This document shows positions 20,174 through 29,913 of a stretch of DNA of 64,000 nucleotides, one piece after another (positions within the stretch are counted from its first letter, which is position 1; each line of letters begins with the position of its first letter). The translations under genes and the position numbers were made by a program. The notes beneath the pieces are model-generated. The model searched no databases. It was given only the letters and a program-made list of their open reading frames with translations, and was not told the origin of the DNA. Origin of the DNA: Iamia majanohamensis (GTDB lineage: Bacteria; Actinomycetota; Acidimicrobiia; Acidimicrobiales; Iamiaceae); the NCBI RefSeq assembly GCF_028532485.1, contig NZ_CP116942.1, positions 3,472,001 through 3,536,000 of the forward strand, given 5' to 3'.

Positions 20174-21253
20174 TCAGAAGGTGAGGACGGTGCGGATGAC
20201 CTCGCCCTTCTTCATGGCGTCGAGGGCCTCGTTGACCTCGTCGACCTTCATCCGCTTGGAGATCATGCCGTCGAGGTTGAGCTGGCCGGACTTCCAGAGC
20301 CGCAGCAGGCGGTGGAAGTCGGAGCGCACGTCGGCCGAGCCGTAGTAGCTGCCCATGAAGGTCTTCTCCGAGAAGAACAGCTCGAAGCCGTTGAAGGAGA
20401 CCTCCTTGTCCATGCCGCCGACGCCGATGATCACCGCGGTGCCGCCCCGGCGCACGGCGTCGTAGGCGGCCCGCATGGTGACGGGCAGGCCGATGGCCTC
20501 GAAGGCGTAGTCGAAGCCGTCGCCGGTGAGCTCGGCCTGGAGCTCGGCCAGGTCGTCGGGCTTGCAGCCGTGGGTGGCGCCGAACTCCTTGGCCTGCTCG
20601 AGCTTCTCCTCCACCAGGTCGACGGCGACGATCGTGGCCGCCCCCGCCACCTGGGCGCCCATGATGGCGGCGATCCCCACGCCACCGCAGCCGAACACCA
20701 CGACCGACGAGCCGGGCGTGACCTTGGCCGTGTTGATGGCGGCGCCCACGCCGGTGGTGACGCCGCAGCCGATGAGCGAGGCGATCTCGAAGGGGATGTC
20801 GTCGTCGATCTTGATGGCCGCCTCCTGGGGGACGGTCATGTACTCGGCGAAGGTGCCGGTGCCGGCCATGCCGAACACGTCCTCGCCGTTCCGCGTGAAG
20901 CGGGGGGTGCCGGCGATGCTGAACTGGATCATCACGCACAGGTGCGGCGACTTGCGCTCGGTGCAGTTGTTGCACTTCCCGCAGGGGGGCGACCAGGCGA
21001 CGATGACGTGGTCGCCGACGGCCAGGTCGGTGACGCCGTCGCCCACTGCGGAGATCTCGCCCGCGCCCTCGTGGCCGGGGACGAACGGGGCGCCCTGGGG
21101 CAGGGTGCCGTTCATGGCCGAGAGGTCCGAGTGGCACACGCCGGTGGCCTTGATGTGGATGGTGACCTCGCCGGGGCCGGGCGCGCCGACCTCCATGTCG
21201 TCGACGATCTCGAGCTTCTCGTCACCGGTGTTGTGGAGCAGGGCAGCCTTCAT
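20174..21253 (-). CDS. Zinc-dependent alcohol dehydrogenase (class III / AdhD-like)
   Basis: A 359-residue medium-chain dehydrogenase. Catalytic zinc ligands are in GVCHSD and PGHEGAG. A structural-zinc loop with several cysteines (PPCGKCNNCTERKSPHLC) is present, as is the NAD-binding GCGGVGIAAI. It resembles mycobacterial AdhD/AdhX enzymes that oxidise alcohols with NAD (some with mycofactocin-linked roles). A KstR-type operator lies 47 bp upstream, suggesting a role in alcohol intermediates of steroid or lipid breakdown. The leader of about 40 nt contains GAGGA. Confidence 0.87.
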   Translation of the reverse strand: MKAALLHNTGDEKLEIVDDMEVGAPGPGEVTIHIKATGVCHSDLSAMNGTLPQGAPFVPGHEGAGEISAVGDGVTDLAVGDHVIVAWSPPCGKCNNCTERKSPHLCVMIQFSIAGTPRFTRNGEDVFGMAGTGTFAEYMTVPQEAAIKIDDDIPFEIASLIGCGVTTGVGAAINTAKVTPGSSVVVFGCGGVGIAAIMGAQVAGAATIVAVDLVEEKLEQAKEFGATHGCKPDDLAELQAELTGDGFDYAFEAIGLPVTMRAAYDAVRRGGTAVIIGVGGMDKEVSFNGFELFFSEKTFMGSYYGSADVRSDFHRLLRLWKSGQLNLDGMISKRMKVDEVNEALDAMKKGEVIRTVLTF

Positions 21254-21296
21254 GCGGAGCGTCCTCGGGGAGGGAGGGGGTGGGGCGGGCCGGACC

Positions 21297-22172
21297 CTAG
21301 TGGAACGCGTTCTCGTCGGAGCCGTGGTCGGAGCCCACCCGGGCGGCGACGTAGGCGACCATCCGGTTGGCGATCCGGACGGCGGCGTCGGCCGGGTGCC
21401 CGTCGACCGCCGCGGGCCGGTCGAGGGCGGTGCGCACCCGCCGGTCGTCGGCCGCGGTGACCCTCCCCTCGTCGAGGGCGACGAGGACGGCGGCCCGGAC
21501 GACGTCGCGGTCGACGGTCCACGTCGCCTCGAAGGTGCGGTCGCCCCCTGCGGTCCCCGGTGGCGTGGGCCGCTCCCAGGCGACCAGCCCGACGGCGAAG
21601 GACGGGCTGTGGGCCAGCACGGCCCACTCGTCGCGCAGGCGCGAGTCGGCGGCGAAGGGCACCTCGACCGGCCCGGCGCCGGCGCGGCGCCGGCGGGCGA
21701 ACCGGGCCAGCACCAGCGCCGCCTCCGCCCCCTCGGCCAGGTGCTGCCAACGCTCCTGGTAGCGGCGGTAGGCCGCCTCGGACTGGAAGGCCCCCACCAC
21801 CACGGGCCGGTCGGCGGTAGCCAGGCACTCGTCCTCGACGGCGTGGCTGAGGGCGACGAGGGTCCGCAGGCTGTGGGTCTGGGGGGCCGACGACGGGGCC
21901 AGGCGGCGCACCTCGCCGCAGATCGACGACGCCCGGGGCGTCGTCGTGGTGGTGGCCTGCGCGATCGCGGCCGCCAGGGACAGCCCGGCCTCGCGCTGGG
22001 ACAGGACGTGGGCGATGCGGCTGCAGTCCTCGGCCGTGTACCGGCGGTGGCCCCGCCGGTCGCGCTGGGGCGCCGGGAACCCGTGGCGCTCCTCCCAGGC
22101 CCGGAGGGTCGCCACCGACACGCCGGTGCGGTCGGCCACCCCTCGGATGGTGAGCGCGTCCTCCTCGTCCAC
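21297..22172 (-). CDS. MerR-DICT transcriptional regulator
   Basis: A 291-residue regulator. The N-terminal MerR winged helix covers about residues 7-75 (IRGVADRTGVSVATLRAWEERHG). A DICT sensory domain follows at about 105-235 (SLRTLVALSHAVEDE and VVVGAFQSEAAYRRY are typical). DICT domains have been linked to light-responsive and two-component systems. It is divergent from the MAA sunscreen operon and is its likely regulator, an inference from position. The GTG start is six bases after a TAGCCT -10 box, so it is leaderless. The last codons (SDENAFH) contain the KstR-type operator of the neighbouring dehydrogenase gene. Confidence 0.87.
   Translation of the reverse strand: MDEEDALTIRGVADRTGVSVATLRAWEERHGFPAPQRDRRGHRRYTAEDCSRIAHVLSQREAGLSLAAAIAQATTTTTPRASSICGEVRRLAPSSAPQTHSLRTLVALSHAVEDECLATADRPVVVGAFQSEAAYRRYQERWQHLAEGAEAALVLARFARRRRAGAGPVEVPFAADSRLRDEWAVLAHSPSFAVGLVAWERPTPPGTAGGDRTFEATWTVDRDVVRAAVLVALDEGRVTAADDRRVRTALDRPAAVDGHPADAAVRIANRMVAYVAARVGSDHGSDENAFH
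21301..21314. promoter_or_regulatory. KstR-type operator upstream of adh, inside the merR tail
   Basis: TGGAACGCGTTCTC matches 13 of 14 KstR consensus positions. On the minus strand it is followed by TAGGGT (21294-21299), whose TAG is also the stop codon of the MerR-DICT gene. It faces the zinc alcohol dehydrogenase. Confidence 0.72.
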
Positions 22173-22178
22173 GGGCCG

Positions 22179-22184
22179 AGGCTA
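22179..22184 (-). promoter_or_regulatory. -10 box of merR-DICT (leaderless)
   Basis: TAGCCT on the minus strand, six bases before the GTG start at 22172. Confidence 0.55.
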
Positions 22185-22235
22185 GGGGCGCGTGGCCCCT
22201 CCGGCCGAGCGCCGGGTCACCGCGTGGGGACGTGA

Positions 22236-22274
22236 CTCGACGATGTGTCGAGGTGTGCTTCGACATGTTGTCGA
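22236..22274. promoter_or_regulatory. Paired inverted repeats in the merR / MAA divergent promoter
   Basis: Two dyads lie in the 220-bp gap between the MerR-DICT gene and the MAA operon. CTCGAC-GATGT-GTCGAG is at 22236-22252 (perfect 6-bp arms) and TCGAC-ATGTT-GTCGA is at 22260-22274 (perfect 5-bp arms). Both have 5-nt spacers, and their centres are 23 bp apart, about two helical turns. They are the best candidate operators for the adjacent regulator. Confidence 0.6.
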
Positions 22275-22392
22275 GCAAGATGTTTCCGCGCCGCCCCGCC
22301 CGGTAGTGCGCGGCAGCGGTGTGCGGCCCCGGCCGACCCACCCCCTCGACCCGCCCCGGGGACCCCCGGCGGCCGACCCCCAGGAGCACCCG

Positions 22393-23055
22393 GTGACCGC
22401 AGTCCTCTTCGGATCCATCTCGACCCTCGTCGACACCTCCGAGCTGCAGCGGGAGGCGTTCAACCGCGCCTTCGCCGCCCACGACCTCGACTGGACCTGG
22501 GAGCGGGACGAGTACCGCGACCTCCTGGCGACCAGCGGCGGCCGCGACCGGGTCGCGGCCTACGCCGAGGAGCGGGGCGCAGACGTCGACGCCGACGCCG
22601 TCCACGCCACCAAGACCCGCCTGTTCCAGGAGCTGCTGGCCGACGAGCCGCCACCGTTGCGACCCGGCGTGGCCGAGGCCATCGACGCCGCCCGGGAGCA
22701 GGGCCACCCCGTCGGGGTCGTGACGACCACGAGCCCCGAGAACGTGGCCGCGGTGCTCGCCGCCGCCGGCCTCGCCGACGCCCCGCTCACCGTCGTCCTC
22801 GACGCCGAGGCGGTGGCCACGCCCAAGCCCGACCCGGCGGCCTACCTCACGGCGCTCGACCGCCTCGGCGTCGAGGCCGACGACGCCGTGGCTGTGGAGG
22901 ACAACCTCGGCGGCCTGGCCTCGGCCCGCGCCGCCGGCGTCGCCTGCGTGGCCTTCCCCAACGCCAACACCGCCGACCACGACTTCGAGGGCGCCGCCGT
23001 CGTCGTCGACCGCGTGGAGCTGGACGGCCTGCTCGGGGCGGCGGACGCCCGGTGA
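22393..23055 (+). CDS. HAD-fold protein with degenerate catalytic motif (MAA cluster)
   Basis: A 220-residue protein of the beta-phosphoglucomutase/CbbY-like HAD subgroup. The cap region and later motifs are present (VVTTTSPE for motif II, ATPKPDP lysine for motif [11 protein letters not shown] for motif IV). Motif I, normally FDLDGTL, reads [10 protein letters not shown], so both the nucleophilic and the acid/base aspartates are missing. It may have a non-catalytic or altered role. The GTG at 22393 has AGGAG at 22382-22386. It is the first gene of the MAA operon, 52 bp before mysA. Confidence 0.8.
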
Positions 23056-23107
23056 CCGCACCCCTCGCCGTCGACCGAACCCACCCCCACCGCCAGGAGA
23101 GCGCGCC

Positions 23108-24316
23108 ATGACCGTCACCGGGACCTACCTCGCCGACGAGGACGGCTTCCAGGTCAGCGGACGGGAGTCCATCGACTTCCGGCTCCGCTACGTGGAGGGC
23201 GTCTTCGACCCCGAGCGGACCGAGCTGGCCGAGTGCTACCAGCCCCTCGGTCGCTGCCTCATGATCGTGGACGAGACCGTCCACTCCCTCCACCGCGAGC
23301 GCATCGACGCCTACTTCGCCCACCACGGCATCGCCCTCACCGCGGCGCCGATGCGCATCCGGGAGGTCGACAAGACCCTGCGGACCGTCGAGCGGATCGT
23401 CGACGCCTTCGCGGACTTCGGGCTCAACCGCACCGAGCCGGTGCTGGTCGTCGGCGGGGGCCTGACCACCGACGTGGCCGGGTTCGCGTGCGCCAGCTAC
23501 AAGCGCAGCACCAGCTACATCCGCATCCCGACGACCCTGATCGGCCTGATCGATGCCAGCGTGGCCATCAAGGTCGCCGTCAACCACGGCCGGTACAAGA
23601 ACCGCCTGGGCGCCTACCACGCCTCGCACACGGTCTTCCTCGACTTCGGCTTCCTCGCCACGCTCCCGCGGGACCAGGTGCGCAACGGCATGGCCGAGCT
23701 GGTGAAGATCGGGGCGGTCGGCCAGGCCGACATCTTCGCCACCCTCGAGAAGCACGGGGAGGAGCTGCTCGACACCCACTTCGGGTTCGTGGACGGGACC
23801 CCCGAGCTGCGCCAGGTCGCCCACCGGCTGACCTACGACGCCATCGACGCCATGCTCGCCCTCGAGGTGCCGAACCTCCACGAGCTCGACCTCGACCGGG
23901 TCATCGCCTACGGCCACACCTGGAGCCCGACCCTCGAGCTGGCCTCGGACCCGCACCTCTTCCACGGCCACGCCGTCAGCGTCGACATGGCCCTCTCGGC
24001 CACCGTCGCCGAGCAGCAGGGCCTGCTCTCGACCGGGGACCGCGACCGGGTCCACGGCCTGCTGACCTCCCTCGGCCTCACCGTCGACGTGCCCGAGCTC
24101 ACCCTCGACCTCGTCACCGAGGCCACCACGTCGATCCTCCAGACCCGCGACGGCCGCCTCCGGGCCGCCATGCCGCACCCGATCGGCACCTGCCACTTCG
24201 TCGACGACCTGACGACCGACGACCTCGGCCGAGCCCTGGCGACGCACAAGGACCTGTGCCGCGACCTCCCCCGCGGGGGCCTGGGCGAGGACCCCTACAC
24301 GCCGACCGCGGCCTGA
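23108..24316 (+). CDS. mysA: Desmethyl-4-deoxygadusol synthase (sugar phosphate cyclase)
   Basis: A 402-residue sugar-phosphate cyclase of the dehydroquinate-synthase fold that converts sedoheptulose 7-phosphate into desmethyl-4-deoxygadusol, the MAA core. NAD-binding VVGGGLTTD is at 114-122. The subfamily block [20 protein letters not shown] is at 140-159, [10 protein letters not shown] at 164-173, and the metal ligands E197 plus the histidines of YGHTW and FHGHA follow. These blocks closely match the cyanobacterial Ava_3858-type enzyme rather than valiolone synthases. AGGAG precedes the ATG. mysB-D directly downstream confirm the pathway. Confidence 0.95.
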
Positions 24317-24320
24317 GCCG

Positions 24321-25139
24321 GTGGACGGCACCGTCGACGGCAGCGCCCTCCGGCCCGTCACCCCGATCGGTCTGGTCGCATCCGAGCTGGCCGCCGCCCT
24401 CGAGGAGCTGGGACCGGACGCCGACGTCCCCGAGGCCGTCCTGGCCCGCCTGCGCCGGGCCCACGAGCTGGCTGCGGGGCTGGAGCCGTACCTCGGCCGG
24501 GCCACCACGCCGGCCTCCGGCGCCCTGCGACGGCTGGCCGAGCGCACCGTCGCCGAGGACTGGGGCGTCGGGCCCCTCGAGGCCGAGATGCTCTCGGGCC
24601 ACGTCGAGGGACGCTTCCTCGCCCTGCTCGTCGGCGTCACCGGCGCCCGTCGGGTGCTCGAGGTCGGCCTCTTCACCGGCTACTCGGCGCTGGCCATGGC
24701 CGAGGCCCTGCCGGCCGACGGCACCCTCGTGGCCTGCGAGGTCGACGACCGGGCCGCGGCCTTCGCCCGGGCGGCGCTGGACGAGGCGCCCGCCGGCGAC
24801 CGGGTGACCGTGGTGGTGGGGCCGGCGCAGGCGACCCTCGACGACCTGGCCCGGGCCGGTGACCGCTTCGACCTGGTGTTCCTCGACGCCGACAAGGCGG
24901 GCTACGCCGGGTACCTCGACCAGCTCCTCGACCACGACCTGCTCGCACCGGGCGGCCTGGTCTGCGCCGACAACACGCTGCTGCAGGGCGAGCCCTACGC
25001 CGAGGGCGGCCCCACCTCGGCCAACGGCCGCGCCATCGCCGAGTTCAACCGGGCCGTGGCCGAGGACCCCCGCCTGGAGCAGGTGGTGCTCCCCCTGCGC
25101 GACGGCCTCACCCTGATCCGGCGGGTCGACGACCGGTGA
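24321..25139 (+). CDS. mysB: MAA O-methyltransferase MysB
   Basis: A 272-residue class I O-methyltransferase of the catechol/caffeoyl-CoA type. The SAM site is VLEVGLFTGYSALAMAEAL near residue 112, the acidic VACEVD follows, and LVFLDADKAGY and CADNTLLQG carry the metal-binding acids. In MAA synthesis it methylates desmethyl-4-deoxygadusol to 4-deoxygadusol. It starts at the GTG 4 bp after mysA and overlaps mysC by four bases (GTGA). Confidence 0.93.
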   Translation: MDGTVDGSALRPVTPIGLVASELAAALEELGPDADVPEAVLARLRRAHELAAGLEPYLGRATTPASGALRRLAERTVAEDWGVGPLEAEMLSGHVEGRFLALLVGVTGARRVLEVGLFTGYSALAMAEALPADGTLVACEVDDRAAAFARAALDEAPAGDRVTVVVGPAQATLDDLARAGDRFDLVFLDADKAGYAGYLDQLLDHDLLAPGGLVCADNTLLQGEPYAEGGPTSANGRAIAEFNRAVAEDPRLEQVVLPLRDGLTLIRRVDDR

Positions 25140-26443
25140 CCGCCCGCCCGGCCCAGGCGGCGCGGACGGCGCTGGTCCTCGCCGCGCTGACCGCAGCCCT
25201 GCCGGTCGAGCTGGCCGCCACCGCCGTCGGCCTGGCCCGCGCCCGTCGCCGACGTGGCCCGGCGGTGGCCCCGACGGGCCGGACGGTCCTGATCAGCGGC
25301 GGGAAGATGAGCAAGGCCCTCCAGCTGGCCCGGGCGTTCCACGCCGCAGGGCACCGGGTGGTCCTGGTGGAGTCGGCCCGCTACCGGCTCACGGGCCACC
25401 GCTTCTCCCGCGCCGTCGACCGCTTCCACGTGGTGCCCGACGCCGGGGCGGACGACTTCGCCGCCGCCCTCCGCGACATCGTGCGGCGCGAGGGGGTCGA
25501 CGTCTTCGTGCCGGTGTCCAGCCCGGCGTCGAGCGTGCCCGAGGCCCGCGCCCGGCGCGAGCTGGACGGCCTCTGCGAGGTCCTGCACGTCGACCCCGAC
25601 GTCGTCGAGCGGCTCGACGACAAGCACGCCTTCGCGGCCACCGCCGCGGCCCTGGGCCTCCCGGTGCCCGAGACCCACCGCGTCACCGACCCCGAGCAGG
25701 TGCTCGGGCTCCCCCTCCGGCCCGGCGTCCGCTACGTGCTGAAGAGCATCCCCTACGACCCGGTGAACCGCCTCGACCTCACCCCCCTGCCCCGACCCAC
25801 CGAGGCCGAGACCGCCGCCTTCGTCCGCTCCAAGCCCATCTCCGAGGAGCAGCCCTGGATCGTCCAGGAGCTGCTGGAGGGCGAGGAGTGGTGCACCCAC
25901 GGCACCGTCCGGTCGGGCGAGCTCACCGTCCACTGCTGCTGCCCCTCGTCGCCGTTCCAGGTGAACTACGCCCACGTGGACAAGCCCGCCGTCGAGGCGT
26001 GGGTCCGCACCTTCGTCAGCGCCCTCGACCTCACTGGCCAGGTCTCGTTCGACTTCATCGAGGGGGCCGACGGCGTCGTCCGGGCCATCGAGTGCAACCC
26101 GAGGACCCACTCCGCGGTCACCACCTTCCACGACCACCCCGACCTGGCCGCGGCCTACCTCCGGGCCGGCGCCACCCTCACCCCCCGACCGGGCAGCCGC
26201 CCGACCTACTGGCTGGCCCACGAGCTCTGGCGTCTCCTCAGCCGACAGCGCCGCCTGCCCGAGGGTCTCCGCGTGCTGGCCCGGGGGACCGACGCGGTGT
26301 GGGACGGGAGCGACCCGCTCCCGTTCCTCGCCCTGCACCACCTCCACATCCCGTCGCTGCTCCTGCGCGACCTGTGGCAGGGGCGCGACTGGGTCCGCAT
26401 CGACTTCAACATCGGCAAGCTCGTCGCCCCCGCAGGCGACTGA
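25136..26443 (+). CDS. mysC: ATP-grasp ligase MysC (mycosporine-glycine synthase)
   Basis: A 435-residue ATP-grasp enzyme that joins glycine to 4-deoxygadusol, giving mycosporine-glycine. After a hydrophobic N-terminal segment (about residues 8-30, possible membrane contact) come MSKALQLARAFHAAGH, the MysC hallmark VPVSSPASSVPEA, YVLKSIPYDPVNRLDL, PWIVQELLEGEEWCTHGTVR and the metal-binding end IECNPRTHSA. Order and blocks match cyanobacterial MysC. The start overlaps mysB by four bases. Confidence 0.94.
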   Translation: MTARPAQAARTALVLAALTAALPVELAATAVGLARARRRRGPAVAPTGRTVLISGGKMSKALQLARAFHAAGHRVVLVESARYRLTGHRFSRAVDRFHVVPDAGADDFAAALRDIVRREGVDVFVPVSSPASSVPEARARRELDGLCEVLHVDPDVVERLDDKHAFAATAAALGLPVPETHRVTDPEQVLGLPLRPGVRYVLKSIPYDPVNRLDLTPLPRPTEAETAAFVRSKPISEEQPWIVQELLEGEEWCTHGTVRSGELTVHCCCPSSPFQVNYAHVDKPAVEAWVRTFVSALDLTGQVSFDFIEGADGVVRAIECNPRTHSAVTTFHDHPDLAAAYLRAGATLTPRPGSRPTYWLAHELWRLLSRQRRLPEGLRVLARGTDAVWDGSDPLPFLALHHLHIPSLLLRDLWQGRDWVRIDFNIGKLVAPAGD

Positions 26444-26446
26444 CCC

Positions 26447-27505
26447 GTGCGCCGCCGACCGCTCCGCGTGCTGCACCTCGTCGGCTCGACCGAGTCCGCG
26501 CTGCTGACCGACCTGTCCCTCCACTACGCGTCGGCGTGCCTCGCCGCCACCGCCGACCCGAGCCGGTACCAGCCGATCATCGCCGAGGTGGCGCCGGACG
26601 GGCGCTGGCGGTTCCCGTCCGACCTCGACACCCCGACCCGGGCGGCGGCGCCCACCACGGACCTGGCGGGGGCCGTGGCCACCCTGGCCGGGCTCGAGCT
26701 CGACGTGGCCGTGCCCCAGATGTTCTGCCTCTCGGGCATGACCCACCACCGGGCCCTGCTCGACCTCCTCGGCATCCCGTACGTGGGCAACACCCCGGCC
26801 GCCATGGCGCTGTCGACCGACAAGGCCCGGGCCAAGGCGGTGGTCGGCGCGGCGGGGGTGCTGGTGCCCGAGGGCGAGGTCCTCGTCCCCGGCCAGGACC
26901 CGACGCTCGCCCCGCCGGTGGTGGTCAAGCCGGTGGCAGGCGACAACTCGGTGGGGATGGCGCTGGTCCGCGACGACCCCGACTGGGCGGCCGCCCTGGA
27001 GGGCGCCTGGGCCGTGGGCCCGGCCCTGGTGGAGCGCTACGTGCCGCCCGGGCGGGAGGTGCGCGCCGCGACCATCGTGCGCGACGGCCGGGTCGCCGCC
27101 CTGCCGCTGGAGGAGTACGCCGTCGACCCCGACCACCGTCCCGTGCGCGACGTGGCCTCCAAGCTGGTCCACGACGACGACGGCTCGGTGCGGCTGACGG
27201 CGAAGGACGACGACGCGGCCTGGATCGTCGCGCCCGACGACCCCGTCACCGCCGCCGCCCAGGACGCCGCCCTCCGGTGCCACGCCGCCCTCGGGTGCCG
27301 CCACTACGGGCTGTTCGACCTCCGCATCGACCCCGAGGGGCGGCCGTGGTTCCTCGAGGCCGGGCTGTACTGCTCCTTCGCCCCCCAGAGCGTCATCCCC
27401 ACCATGGCCCGGGCCGCCGGCACCACCCTGGAGGCCCTCTTCGCCGACCTGCTGGAGCTGGCCCTCGCCGAGGGCCCCGGCGGACCGGGCCCGACGCCGA
27501 CGTGA
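26447..27505 (+). CDS. mysD: D-Ala-D-Ala ligase-like MysD (second amino acid addition)
   Basis: A 352-residue D-alanine-D-alanine-ligase-type ATP-grasp enzyme. In MAA pathways MysD adds a second amino acid (serine, threonine or other) to mycosporine-glycine, giving shinorine- or porphyra-334-like imines. Seen here are LHLVGSTESALLTDLSLHYA at the start, PYVGNTPAAMALSTDK, PVVVKPVAGDNSVGM for ATP binding, and the metal-binding tail FLEAGLY. Which amino acid is used cannot be read. It starts 3 bp after mysC and overlaps the dioxygenase gene by four bases. Confidence 0.92.
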   Translation: MRRRPLRVLHLVGSTESALLTDLSLHYASACLAATADPSRYQPIIAEVAPDGRWRFPSDLDTPTRAAAPTTDLAGAVATLAGLELDVAVPQMFCLSGMTHHRALLDLLGIPYVGNTPAAMALSTDKARAKAVVGAAGVLVPEGEVLVPGQDPTLAPPVVVKPVAGDNSVGMALVRDDPDWAAALEGAWAVGPALVERYVPPGREVRAATIVRDGRVAALPLEEYAVDPDHRPVRDVASKLVHDDDGSVRLTAKDDDAAWIVAPDDPVTAAAQDAALRCHAALGCRHYGLFDLRIDPEGRPWFLEAGLYCSFAPQSVIPTMARAAGTTLEALFADLLELALAEGPGGPGPTPT

Positions 27506-28350
27506 AGGTCGAGGTCCTGGCTCCCGTCGGGGCCCGGGTCGGCGGCTGCGACCTCGCCACCGCGGACGCAGGCACCGTCGAGCACCTCCGCTCCCTGCTC
27601 GCCGAGCACGGCGTCCTGGTCTGCCCCGGCCAGCACCTGGGCGACGGCGCGCTGGTGGCGCTCCTCCGCCGCTTCGGCGAGCTGGCCTTCACCACCGGGG
27701 AGACCCCCGTCCCCGGCACCCCCGAGCTCAACGTGGTCACCACCGTGGGCCGCACGACCCCGCCGCGGAGCAGCTTCCACGTCGACACGACCTACGTCCG
27801 GCACCCGCCCGCCTACACCGCCCTCCGCGCCGTCACGGTCCCCGTGGCCGGCGGGGCCACGCTCTTCAGCGACCAGCGCCGGGCCCTGGCGACCCTCCCC
27901 CCCGACCTGCGGGCGCGGATCGCAGGTCGCACCGTCACCCACGTCGTCACCGGCCTCGACCTGCCGGAGGGCGCCGAGCGCGCCGCCACCCACCCCCTCG
28001 TCCGCCCCCACCCCCGCACCGGTCGCCCGGCCCTGTACCTCACCAGCCCGGCCCGGTGCGCGTCGGTCAGCGGCCTCGACGCCGACGAGGGCGCGCGCCT
28101 CGTCGCCGCCCTGCACGCCCACTCCACCCGCCCCGACAACGTCACGTCCCACCGGTGGTCGGCGGGCGACCTCGTGATCTGGGACAACGCCTGCGTGATG
28201 CACCGGGCCGACCACGGCGACGTGCGGGGCGACCGCACGCTCCACCGGGGCATGGTCGCCGCCTCCGGCCATCGAGCGTCCCCGGAGGGAACCCCGGGCC
28301 GGGAGCAGCCCGGCCCCGACGCCCAGAACGAGAACGCGTTCTCGTTCTGA
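27502..28350 (+). CDS. TauD/TfdA-type Fe(II)/2-oxoglutarate dioxygenase (MAA tailoring)
   Basis: A 282-residue dioxygenase with the facial triad start HVDTTY near residue 93 and the distal histidine in NACVMHRADHG near 233; the arginine that would bind 2-oxoglutarate is in the following RTLHRGMV. It begins at a GTG overlapping mysD by four bases, so it belongs to the MAA operon. It occupies the place of MysH, the dioxygenase that makes palythine-type MAAs in cyanobacteria, but MysH is phytanoyl-CoA-dioxygenase-like and this one is TauD-like. Its final codons (NENAFSF) overlap the operator of the next gene. Confidence 0.85.
   Translation: MKVEVLAPVGARVGGCDLATADAGTVEHLRSLLAEHGVLVCPGQHLGDGALVALLRRFGELAFTTGETPVPGTPELNVVTTVGRTTPPRSSFHVDTTYVRHPPAYTALRAVTVPVAGGATLFSDQRRALATLPPDLRARIAGRTVTHVVTGLDLPEGAERAATHPLVRPHPRTGRPALYLTSPARCASVSGLDADEGARLVAALHAHSTRPDNVTSHRWSAGDLVIWDNACVMHRADHGDVRGDRTLHRGMVAASGHRASPEGTPGREQPGPDAQNENAFSF
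28325..28348. promoter_or_regulatory. Extended 24-bp KstR-like palindrome upstream of acyl-CoA synthetase
   Basis: A perfect 24-bp palindrome: the half AGAACGAGAACG is followed by its exact complement. It nests a central GAGAACGCGTTCTC (28330-28343, 12/14 to KstR) within outer AGAAC/GTTCT arms. A TAGGGT -10 box (28352-28357) lies eight bases before the ATG at 28366. The palindrome is wholly inside the coding end of the dioxygenase gene. Confidence 0.75.
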
Positions 28351-28365
28351 CTAGGGTCGCAGCCC

Positions 28366-29913
28366 ATGGGTGATCTCGGATTCTGGCGACTGGCAGAGGC
28401 GGACCCGGACCGGCTGGCGCTGGTCGACCCCGAGGGGGGTGAGCACACCGCCGGCGACCTCCTGGCCCGGGCCAACCAGGCCGCCCACGGCCTGCGGGCC
28501 CTGGGCCTCGGCACCGGCGACACCCTCGCCGTGCTGCTCCCCAACGGGGTCGAGCTCATCGAGCTCTTCCTCGCCGCCCTCCAGGTGGGCGTGCGCATCA
28601 CTCCGATCAACTTCCACCTGGTCGGACCCGAGGTCGCCTACATCCTCACCGACAGCGAGGCGAAGGCGTTCGTGGCCCACGAGCGCTTCGCCCAGGTGGC
28701 GATCGACGCAGCCGACGAGGCCGGCTTCCCCGTCGAGGCCCGCTTCGCGGCGGGCAGCATCGACGGCTTCCGCCCCCTGGCGGAGCTGGGCGGCGACCAG
28801 CCCACCACCGCACCCGAGGACCGCACCACCGGTGCCGCCATGCACTACACCTCCGGCACCACCGGCCGCCCCAAGGGCGTCCGGCGCGACCTCGCCCCCA
28901 TCGGCCCCGACGACATGGCCGAGCTCATGGGCTACCTGCCCAACCTCTTCGGCATCGCGCCGCGCGACGGCCACGTCCACCTCACCGTCTCGCCGCTGTA
29001 CCACACGGCCGTGCTCATGTGGACGGGCAACGCCCTCTCGCTCGGCCACACCGTCGTGCTCATGGACAAGTGGCGGGCCGAGGAGACGCTCCAGCTGATC
29101 GAGCGCCACGGGGTCACCTACAGCCACATGGTCCCCACCCAGTTCGTGCGCCTCCTCGACCTGCCCGAGGAGACCCGCGCCCGCTACGACGTGTCGTCGC
29201 TGCGGAACATGGTCCACGGCGCCGCGCCCTGCCCGCCGGAGGTGAAGCGCCGGATGATCGACTGGTGGGGCGACACGATCCAGGAGTACTACGCCGCCAC
29301 CGAGGGCGGGGGCACCGTCATCACCGCGGCCGAGTGGCTGGAGCGGCCCGGCTCGGTGGGCAGCCCCTGGCCCGGCAGCGAGGTCCGCATCTACGACGAC
29401 GAGGGCAACCAGCTGGGCCCGGGCCAGGTCGGCACCGTCTACATGTCGCTGATGGCCGACTTCGAGTACAAGGGCGACCGTCAGAAGACCGACGACAACC
29501 GCATCGACGGCTTCTTCACCGTCGGCGACCTGGGCGAGCTCGACGACGACGGCTACCTCTACCTGCGCGACCGCAAGAGCGACATGATCATCAGCGGCGG
29601 GGTCAACATCTACCCGGCCGAGATCGAGGGCGAGCTCATCACCCACCCCAAGGTGGCCGACGTCGCCGTCTTCGGCATCCCCCACGCCGACTGGGGCGAG
29701 GAGATCAAGGCCGTGGTGGAGACGCCCGAGGGCGTCGAGGGCTCACCGGAGGTGGAGGCCGAGATCCTGGAGTGGGCGGCCACCCGGATGGCCCGCTTCA
29801 AGCTGCCGCGGTCGGTCGACTTCGTCGAGACCCTCCCCCGCGAGCCCAACGGCAAGCTCATGAAGCGCCGCCTGCGCGACCCCTACTGGGCCGACGCCGA
29901 CTCCCAGATCTGA
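28366..29913 (+). CDS. Acyl-CoA synthetase (FadD-type AMP-binding enzyme)
   Basis: A 515-residue adenylate-forming enzyme that activates carboxylic acids as CoA thioesters. The AMP-binding signature YTSGTTGRPKGV is near residue 160, YYAATEGGG follows in the adenine site, and GDLGELDDDGYLYLRDRKSD and NGKLMKR carry the hinge and the C-terminal catalytic lysine. Chain or steroid acid specificity is not readable. An extended KstR-like palindrome and a -10 box eight bases before the ATG indicate a repressed, probably leaderless mRNA. Confidence 0.92.
   Translation: MGDLGFWRLAEADPDRLALVDPEGGEHTAGDLLARANQAAHGLRALGLGTGDTLAVLLPNGVELIELFLAALQVGVRITPINFHLVGPEVAYILTDSEAKAFVAHERFAQVAIDAADEAGFPVEARFAAGSIDGFRPLAELGGDQPTTAPEDRTTGAAMHYTSGTTGRPKGVRRDLAPIGPDDMAELMGYLPNLFGIAPRDGHVHLTVSPLYHTAVLMWTGNALSLGHTVVLMDKWRAEETLQLIERHGVTYSHMVPTQFVRLLDLPEETRARYDVSSLRNMVHGAAPCPPEVKRRMIDWWGDTIQEYYAATEGGGTVITAAEWLERPGSVGSPWPGSEVRIYDDEGNQLGPGQVGTVYMSLMADFEYKGDRQKTDDNRIDGFFTVGDLGELDDDGYLYLRDRKSDMIISGGVNIYPAEIEGELITHPKVADVAVFGIPHADWGEEIKAVVETPEGVEGSPEVEAEILEWAATRMARFKLPRSVDFVETLPREPNGKLMKRRLRDPYWADADSQI

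Follow-up and report, generated by a model that had tools for sequence, protein, structure and literature searches.

What does a TauD-type dioxygenase do at the end of an actinobacterial operon for mycosporine-like amino acids (MAAs), which serve as sunscreens, where some cyanobacterial clusters have a MysH of another protein family? The question is raised by Iamia majanohamensis, in which the cluster lies within a window of 64,000 nucleotides (the whole stretch of DNA that was analysed; RefSeq assembly GCF_028532485.1, contig NZ_CP116942.1, positions 3,472,001 to 3,536,000). The relevant features, in window coordinates, are as follows.

20174-21253, minus strand: alcohol dehydrogenase gene, left flank
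21254-28365, no strand: MAA island of 7112 bp between the flanking genes, an interval of 72-131 bp in six relatives
21297-22172, minus strand: MerR-DICT protein (PF13411, PF10069), divergent, candidate operon regulator
21301-21314, no strand: operator-like palindrome at the left edge, inside the 3' end of the MerR-DICT gene
22393-23055, plus strand: CbbY-fold HAD protein without the nucleophile Asp (FGSIST replaces FDxDGT)
23108-24316, plus strand: mysA, dehydroquinate-synthase-like cyclase (PF01761, PF24621)
24321-25139, plus strand: mysB, O-methyltransferase (PF01596)
25136-26443, plus strand: mysC, ATP-grasp-type ligase (MysC homology, NCBIfam NF005315)
26447-27505, plus strand: mysD, D-Ala-D-Ala-ligase-type ligase (PF07478)
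27502-28350, plus strand: predicted MAA-clade TauD/TfdA Fe(II)/2OG dioxygenase (PF02668, residues and tree), with a disordered tail of 22 residues
28324-28349, no strand: 26-bp palindrome at the right edge, core GAGAACGCGTTCTC at 28330-28343, inside the 3' end of the TauD gene
28366-29913, plus strand: acyl-CoA synthetase gene, right flank

Upstream of the TauD gene, the HAD gene (ending at 23055), mysA, mysB, mysC and mysD follow one another on the same strand, and from mysA onward each gene either lies 3-4 bp from the next or shares 4 bp with it. The HAD start at 22393 was chosen by alignment in a frame that is open from 22192. The MysC protein matches NCBIfam NF005315 with 409 bits, has no Pfam match and is 58-65% identical to MysC of five other MAA clusters; homology and context predict a mycosporine-glycine synthase. 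The TauD frame begins with GTG and encodes 282 amino acids. It overlaps by 4 bp with mysD, whose TGA stop lies at 27503-27505, in agreement with the sequence-only reading that had placed it as the last, overlapping gene of the operon. Pfam PF02668 covers residues 4-250 with 186.8 bits (cut-off 27; E 9.7e-55), a match that rules out a chance reading frame.

The iron-binding HxD...H triad and the 2OG arginine are all present (H93, D95, H234 and R245), together with a further arginine, R249; the earlier claim of an intact Fe(II)/2OG site thus holds. The two arginines stand 11 and 15 residues after the distal histidine, positions that we take to match the 2OG arginine and the anionic-substrate arginine of Escherichia coli TauD. 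A structure model built on an alignment of 59 cluster-borne sequences, among them that of the window, has a mean pLDDT of 90.7, and residues 261-282 form its disordered tail (pLDDT below 50). The closest PDB folds are RdpA, PlaO1 and AAD-1, and the closest PDB entries by sequence are again RdpA/AAD-1-type enzymes and PlaO1.

The whole cluster occupies a site that is nearly empty in six relatives. The island contains the MerR-DICT gene, the HAD gene, mysABCD and the TauD gene. In ten relatives of the same family, the two flanking genes are divergent and close together on a single contig; the distance between them is 72-131 bp in six of these relatives and 1.6-3.4 kb in the other four. Of the empty sites, four were read: a GAAC-N2-GTTC palindrome is present twice in one (G009), once in each of two others (G016 and G011) and as a diverged copy in the fourth (G022), and the window has one palindrome copy at each edge of the island. 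Both outermost frames end inside these edge palindromes, hence the similar C-termini of TauD (..QNENAFSF) and MerR-DICT (..DENAFH); the last eight TauD residues are encoded by the 26-bp palindrome. MysC was found in only 1 of 24 genomes of the family and 1 of 296 of the class, in both cases the window's own. Given the empty site and the absence of MysC from all 23 family relatives, the cluster was either acquired as one block or retained as one block by this genome alone. Base composition was also considered as a sign of foreign origin and gives no signal (island 75.6% GC, window 74.7%); what speaks for insertion is the empty site together with the absence from relatives.

The best NCBIfam match of the MerR-DICT protein is the N-terminal part of the CarH repressor, far below the cut-off. 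No second MerR-DICT gene occurs in the fetched loci, and a role as common regulator of MAA clusters was rejected. In Mycolicibacterium bacteremicum, an EAL-DICT protein is encoded directly 3' of the TauD gene (L080:12116-13468), too little for a claim about regulation.

Is the neighbourhood of TauD and MAA genes peculiar to this genome? A MysC alignment used to scan genomes returned 238 relatives, and the best 80 loci were kept, a choice that over-represents window-like loci and under-represents cyanobacteria. A cluster-type TauD is present in 59 of these best 80 (one, L048, ends at a contig end), decayed in 2 and absent from 19, so that a unique or chance adjacency, the outcome that would have undone the earlier reading, is ruled out. 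By group, cluster TauDs occur in 55 of 63 actinobacterial loci (six have none and two a decayed copy), in 3 of 16 cyanobacterial loci and in the single Rhodospirillales MAG; L040, titled Melainabacteria, is placed among actinobacterial rows in the tree and was counted with them. The commonest gene order is that of the window, HAD-A-B-C-D-TauD, in 34 rows, one locus appearing twice as L018 and L044. TauD lies between mysB and mysC in 17 rows.

As a separate observation, the best MysA match in L016, L017 and L082 shares just 37-39% identity with the MysA of the window, compared with at least 60% in the other MysA-bearing loci, and in L016 and L017 it precedes the HAD gene. An exchange of the cyclase in these three loci is possible from the sequences.

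The cluster-borne TauDs form a family of their own. A family profile gives members at least 362 bits, while the ordinary TauDs available at that stage score no more than 174.5, the exceptions being the incomplete L048 protein (219 bits) and the decayed copies of L086 and L087 (159-168 bits). The sequence-only reading had proposed a phylogeny of TauDs beside mysD. A quick maximum-likelihood tree was computed from 124 rows, 62 from clusters and 62 ordinary, and judged by SH-aLRT support only; in it, all 62 cluster TauDs fall on one side of a branch with support 100. The tree includes 57 of the 59 cluster TauDs of the best-80 loci and leaves out L048, L062, L018, L086, L087 and locus copies. The nearest kin of the window's protein are those of L016 and L017 from the same phylum (support 95), and the four rows from cyanobacteria group with the Rhodospirillales row in a subclade (support 99). 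The TauD of the Rhodococcus fascians strain in L027 is 54% identical to the window's.

Two sets of conserved residues characterize this clade. First: H93, D95, T120, H234, R245 and R249 are invariant across all 62 clade rows, of which the window's is one, and recur in 60 to 62 of the 62 ordinary TauDs. Second: N77, R84, R185, C186, D237, H238 and G250 are found in 61 or 62 of the 62 clade rows and in 0 or 1 of the 62 ordinary ones. Together, the two sets mark an oxygenase whose Fe(II)/2OG site is intact and which probably acts on a substrate of its own, as the clade-specific polar residues N77, R84, R185, D237 and H238 suggest.

How does this enzyme relate to MysH, which it had been proposed to replace? 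MysH shares Fe(II)/2OG chemistry, an MAA cluster and probably the product class with the window's protein, but belongs to another Pfam family, PF05721 rather than PF02668. On a Nostoc HK-01 plasmid, a MysH-like PhyH protein (PF05721) is encoded between mysC and mysD; this one protein, rather than published MysH, served for the comparison, and the window's TauD gives no meaningful alignment with it (E 31). With PF02668 as its sole Pfam match and no similarity to the MysH-like protein, the window's TauD was ruled out as a MysH homologue and is of TauD/TfdA type, as the earlier reading had it. No frame in the fetched MAA loci L015-L019 and L024-L103, TauD-bearing or not, matches the MysH-like protein at E 1e-3. 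Its only close relative among the fetched loci (66% identity) is from an Anabaena 4-3 genome without a clade TauD. Sequence comparison supports an independent recruitment of TauD and MysH. One MysH-like protein inside an MAA cluster is thin evidence for an alternation of the two, and a strict alternation is not implied. The idea of an independently recruited tailoring step therefore stands as far as TauD appears where some cyanobacterial clusters have PhyH-type MysH and is dissimilar in sequence to the MysH-like protein; the novelty of its product does not.

Two literature sources bear directly on the enzyme. The GATOR-GC preprint (PMC11888242) describes good conservation of HAD and TauD across MAA clusters and suggests that TauD works like MysH; these are the same two families, with the same suggested palythine role, that we describe. 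By its place in the branch and by the HAD gene in the same cluster, the window's TauD is a member of that preprint's MAA-cluster TauD clade. Set against the accessible text of the preprint, our analysis delimits the clade, includes a few Cyanobacteriota and finds a HAD without catalytic aspartates; the host of the window's cluster also appears to belong to another class than Rhodococcus. In the accessible part of PMC10510106, a TauD/TfdA enzyme named MysI is described from cyanobacterial MAA clusters (mysFIE), so the presentation of TauD as a discovery is not supported. MysI resembles the window's TauD in family, MAA context and proposed palythine-type reaction; it lies beside MysF and a glycine-specific MysE, whereas the window's TauD has mysD and the acyl-CoA synthetase gene as neighbours (MysI as described in the same excerpt). 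A search for MysI among generic cyanobacterial TauDs gave 54 places in 386 genomes, and none of 40 neighbourhoods, some of which end at contig ends, has a match to mysA-D. No record of Nostoc UHCC 0926, the MysI strain, was among the plasmid matches listed (15 of 297, all below 60% identity; 14 of 14). Of two further papers, PMC8928166 has mycosporine in its reference list only and TauD nowhere, and PMC10384724 mentions neither MysH nor a dioxygenase.

The best structural matches point to a type of reaction. The aryloxyalkanoate dioxygenases RdpA, AAD-1 and TfdA cleave a bond between a heteroatom and the carbon beside a carboxylate; they are about 30% identical to the window's TauD and use another substrate. 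In RdpA and TfdA, the carbon that is hydroxylated is flanked by an ether oxygen and a carboxylate, and the hydroxylated product then breaks up. Shinorine has an equivalent carbon in its ring-bound glycine, flanked by a carboxylate and by nitrogen instead of oxygen. By this analogy, the window's TauD would bind an MAA made by MysA-D, either shinorine, porphyra-334 or mycosporine-2-glycine, with R249 holding the carboxylate of the ring-bound glycine. It would hydroxylate the alpha carbon of this glycine, and the resulting carbinolamine would collapse into glyoxylate and a free ring amine, a cleavage of the TfdA/RdpA kind performed here on N-CH2-COOH. The product, lighter by C2H2O2 (58.005 Da), would be a palythine, the same product class as that of the PhyH-type MysH, reached by convergent recruitment.

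We consider it probable, with some reserve, that the window's TauD is an MAA tailoring dioxygenase that forms palythine by removing glycine (-58.005 Da). Glycine removal is taken as the most likely reaction because of the RdpA/TfdA analogy and because of an expression account in PMC11888242: according to the accessible text, which cites an unpublished meeting abstract and describes no TauD deletion, the HAD- and TauD-bearing operon of R. fascians D188 yields shinorine, palythine and palythine-serine in Streptomyces. What is available of PMC10510106 proposes the other side-chain position for MysI, and this counts against the choice of glycine. The new MAA proposed by the sequence-only reading is not supported, since the likeliest product belongs to a known class, the palythines.

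Other substrates or reactions were weighed. TauD/TfdA enzymes are chemically versatile, and other oxidations occur; ScoE, an oxidizing decarboxylase, is also among the PDB sequence matches, and the clade-specific pocket candidates are unlike those of ordinary TauDs. The enzyme might accordingly desaturate the MAA, hydroxylate it at a beta position or decarboxylate a side-chain glycine, and so make a different MAA or, as the sequence-only reading had it, a new one. We regard this as unlikely, as the sole reported expression of an operon with HAD and TauD names only the three products above (PMC11888242, in the text available). The position of TauD, after mysD or between mysB and mysC, leaves its order of action unfixed, which would also suit a substrate that is no MAA at all but a free amino acid or some other small compound, perhaps one that MysC or MysD uses. 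Palythine production from the same operon, as given in that portion of PMC11888242, speaks against such a substrate, and we consider it very improbable.

Palythine formation by TauD leaves the presence of the HAD protein unexplained. Its model (pLDDT 96.3) has the fold of CbbY, a sugar-bisphosphate phosphatase, with a TM-score of 0.91 and 38% identity to 4uar, and its sequence matches 4uat at E 1.9e-41. In CbbY-type proteins, the first Asp of motif I (FDxDGT) is the nucleophile. The MAA protein has GS(I/L)(S/G) instead: Gly replaces the nucleophile Asp, and Ile or Leu replaces the Asp two residues later. GSI is found in 67 and GSL in 2 of the 69 readable rows (of 70 in total, one locus counted twice; L088 lacks the segment). 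Among the ordinary HAD relatives, 24 weaker matches in the phylum, the 21 that can be aligned all keep DxDG, and an ordinary Asp-nucleophile phosphatase is rejected at motif I. The later motifs are kept, with T115, T117, K149 and E173 in 70 of 70 rows and D174 in 68. Over 10 pairs, the dN/dS of HAD ranges from 0.06 to 0.43, and that of MysC, measured in these pairs too, from 0.07 to 0.21. Since its nucleophile motif is lost, the HAD protein, conserved and under purifying selection, is predicted to be unable to use the usual HAD phosphatase mechanism. We found no mention of the loss of motif I in the accessible parts of the MAA-cluster literature searched.

The HAD protein keeps close company with the pathway. 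In phylum draws of 396 genomes each, taken as the same set and with 4 (MysC) and 7 (HAD) first-look candidates scored per genome, MysC occurs in 10 at E 1e-20, 6 of them above 500 bits; these six are also the six genomes with a HAD match of at least 227 bits, and the next HAD match reaches 121. Outside the actinobacterial set, HAD and TauD are adjacent and co-directional in 5 of 5 loci (L045, L082, L088, L093 and L258), and the L258 pair lies on another contig than mysABCD. These pairs suggest that TauD and the nucleophile-less HAD act as one functional unit, the HAD presenting the substrate or guarding an unstable intermediate and TauD being inefficient alone. Such a unit is compatible with palythine formation, and our confidences in the several readings do not add up to one. 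We nevertheless find it doubtful, as 8 of 58 HAD-bearing actinobacterial loci keep HAD where TauD is absent (6) or decayed (2), and the dN/dS of HAD is still 0.08-0.21 in the three measured pairs without an intact TauD. In addition, Chamaesiphon (L096) has the HAD with no TauD match in its assembly, and in most actinobacterial loci the two genes are not neighbours. The actinobacterial loci without HAD (L030, L034, L042, L046 and L062) start at a contig end inside the cluster, so that HAD cannot be judged there. Because these 8 loci and also L019 have HAD without an intact TauD, HAD is not only a helper of TauD.

TauD has decayed or is absent in several Actinomycetospora loci. In two species, the TauD gene lacks the iron ligands (L086:8186-8977 and L087:7358-8980), three shared in-frame deletions having taken out the segments of the HxD motif and of the distal His as well as one in the middle. 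The dN/dS of this remnant, 0.37 over 176 codons, fits decay or a residual role alike. Five more Actinomycetospora loci have no TauD (L052, L053, L068, L074 and L084), and their genomes contain ordinary TauD matches only, of at most 103 bits, or none.

The clade also extends beyond Actinomycetota. In the text of PMC11888242 available to us, HAD and TauD are stated not to be present in Cyanobacteriota; as a new observation contrary to that statement, the clade occurs in a few of them. HAD and TauD are neighbours with the same direction in Phormidesmis priestleyi BC1401 (L093), in an uncultured cyanobacterium (L088) and in a Leptolyngbyaceae MAG (L045), and a Synechococcales MAG carries the pair at L258:9635-11173, on another contig than its mysABCD (L103). 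Three of these four sources are MAGs or uncultured and may contain binning errors, though the four rows group in the tree. The clade is rare in cyanobacteria, since in a draw of 386 cyanobacterial genomes a clade TauD was matched at E 1e-18 in Phormidesmis only. The L093 and L088 assemblies have no PhyH match; the L045 assembly has four, and the two compared are 21-24% identical to the MysH-like protein. The HAD frame of L088 (L088:925-1533) lacks the N-terminal segment that bears motif I, through either a frameshift or a truncation.

For the HAD protein, the chances seem to us evenly balanced that, in MAA clusters of Actinomycetota and some Cyanobacteriota, it is a working, non-hydrolytic component of the pathway that travels, outside Actinomycetota, with a palythine-forming TauD as a transferable pair. 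Such a component may, for example, be a carrier of sedoheptulose phosphate or of an MAA intermediate, or an enzyme with new chemistry. With the catalytic aspartates missing from every readable row, what looked like an additional phosphatase becomes an unexplained part of MAA biosynthesis that can be tested directly. If the window's TauD does form palythine, bacteria would have recruited at least two unrelated families of iron dioxygenases to a single step in the diversification of their sunscreens, and the clade residues would provide a rule that separates palythine-type from shinorine-type clusters.
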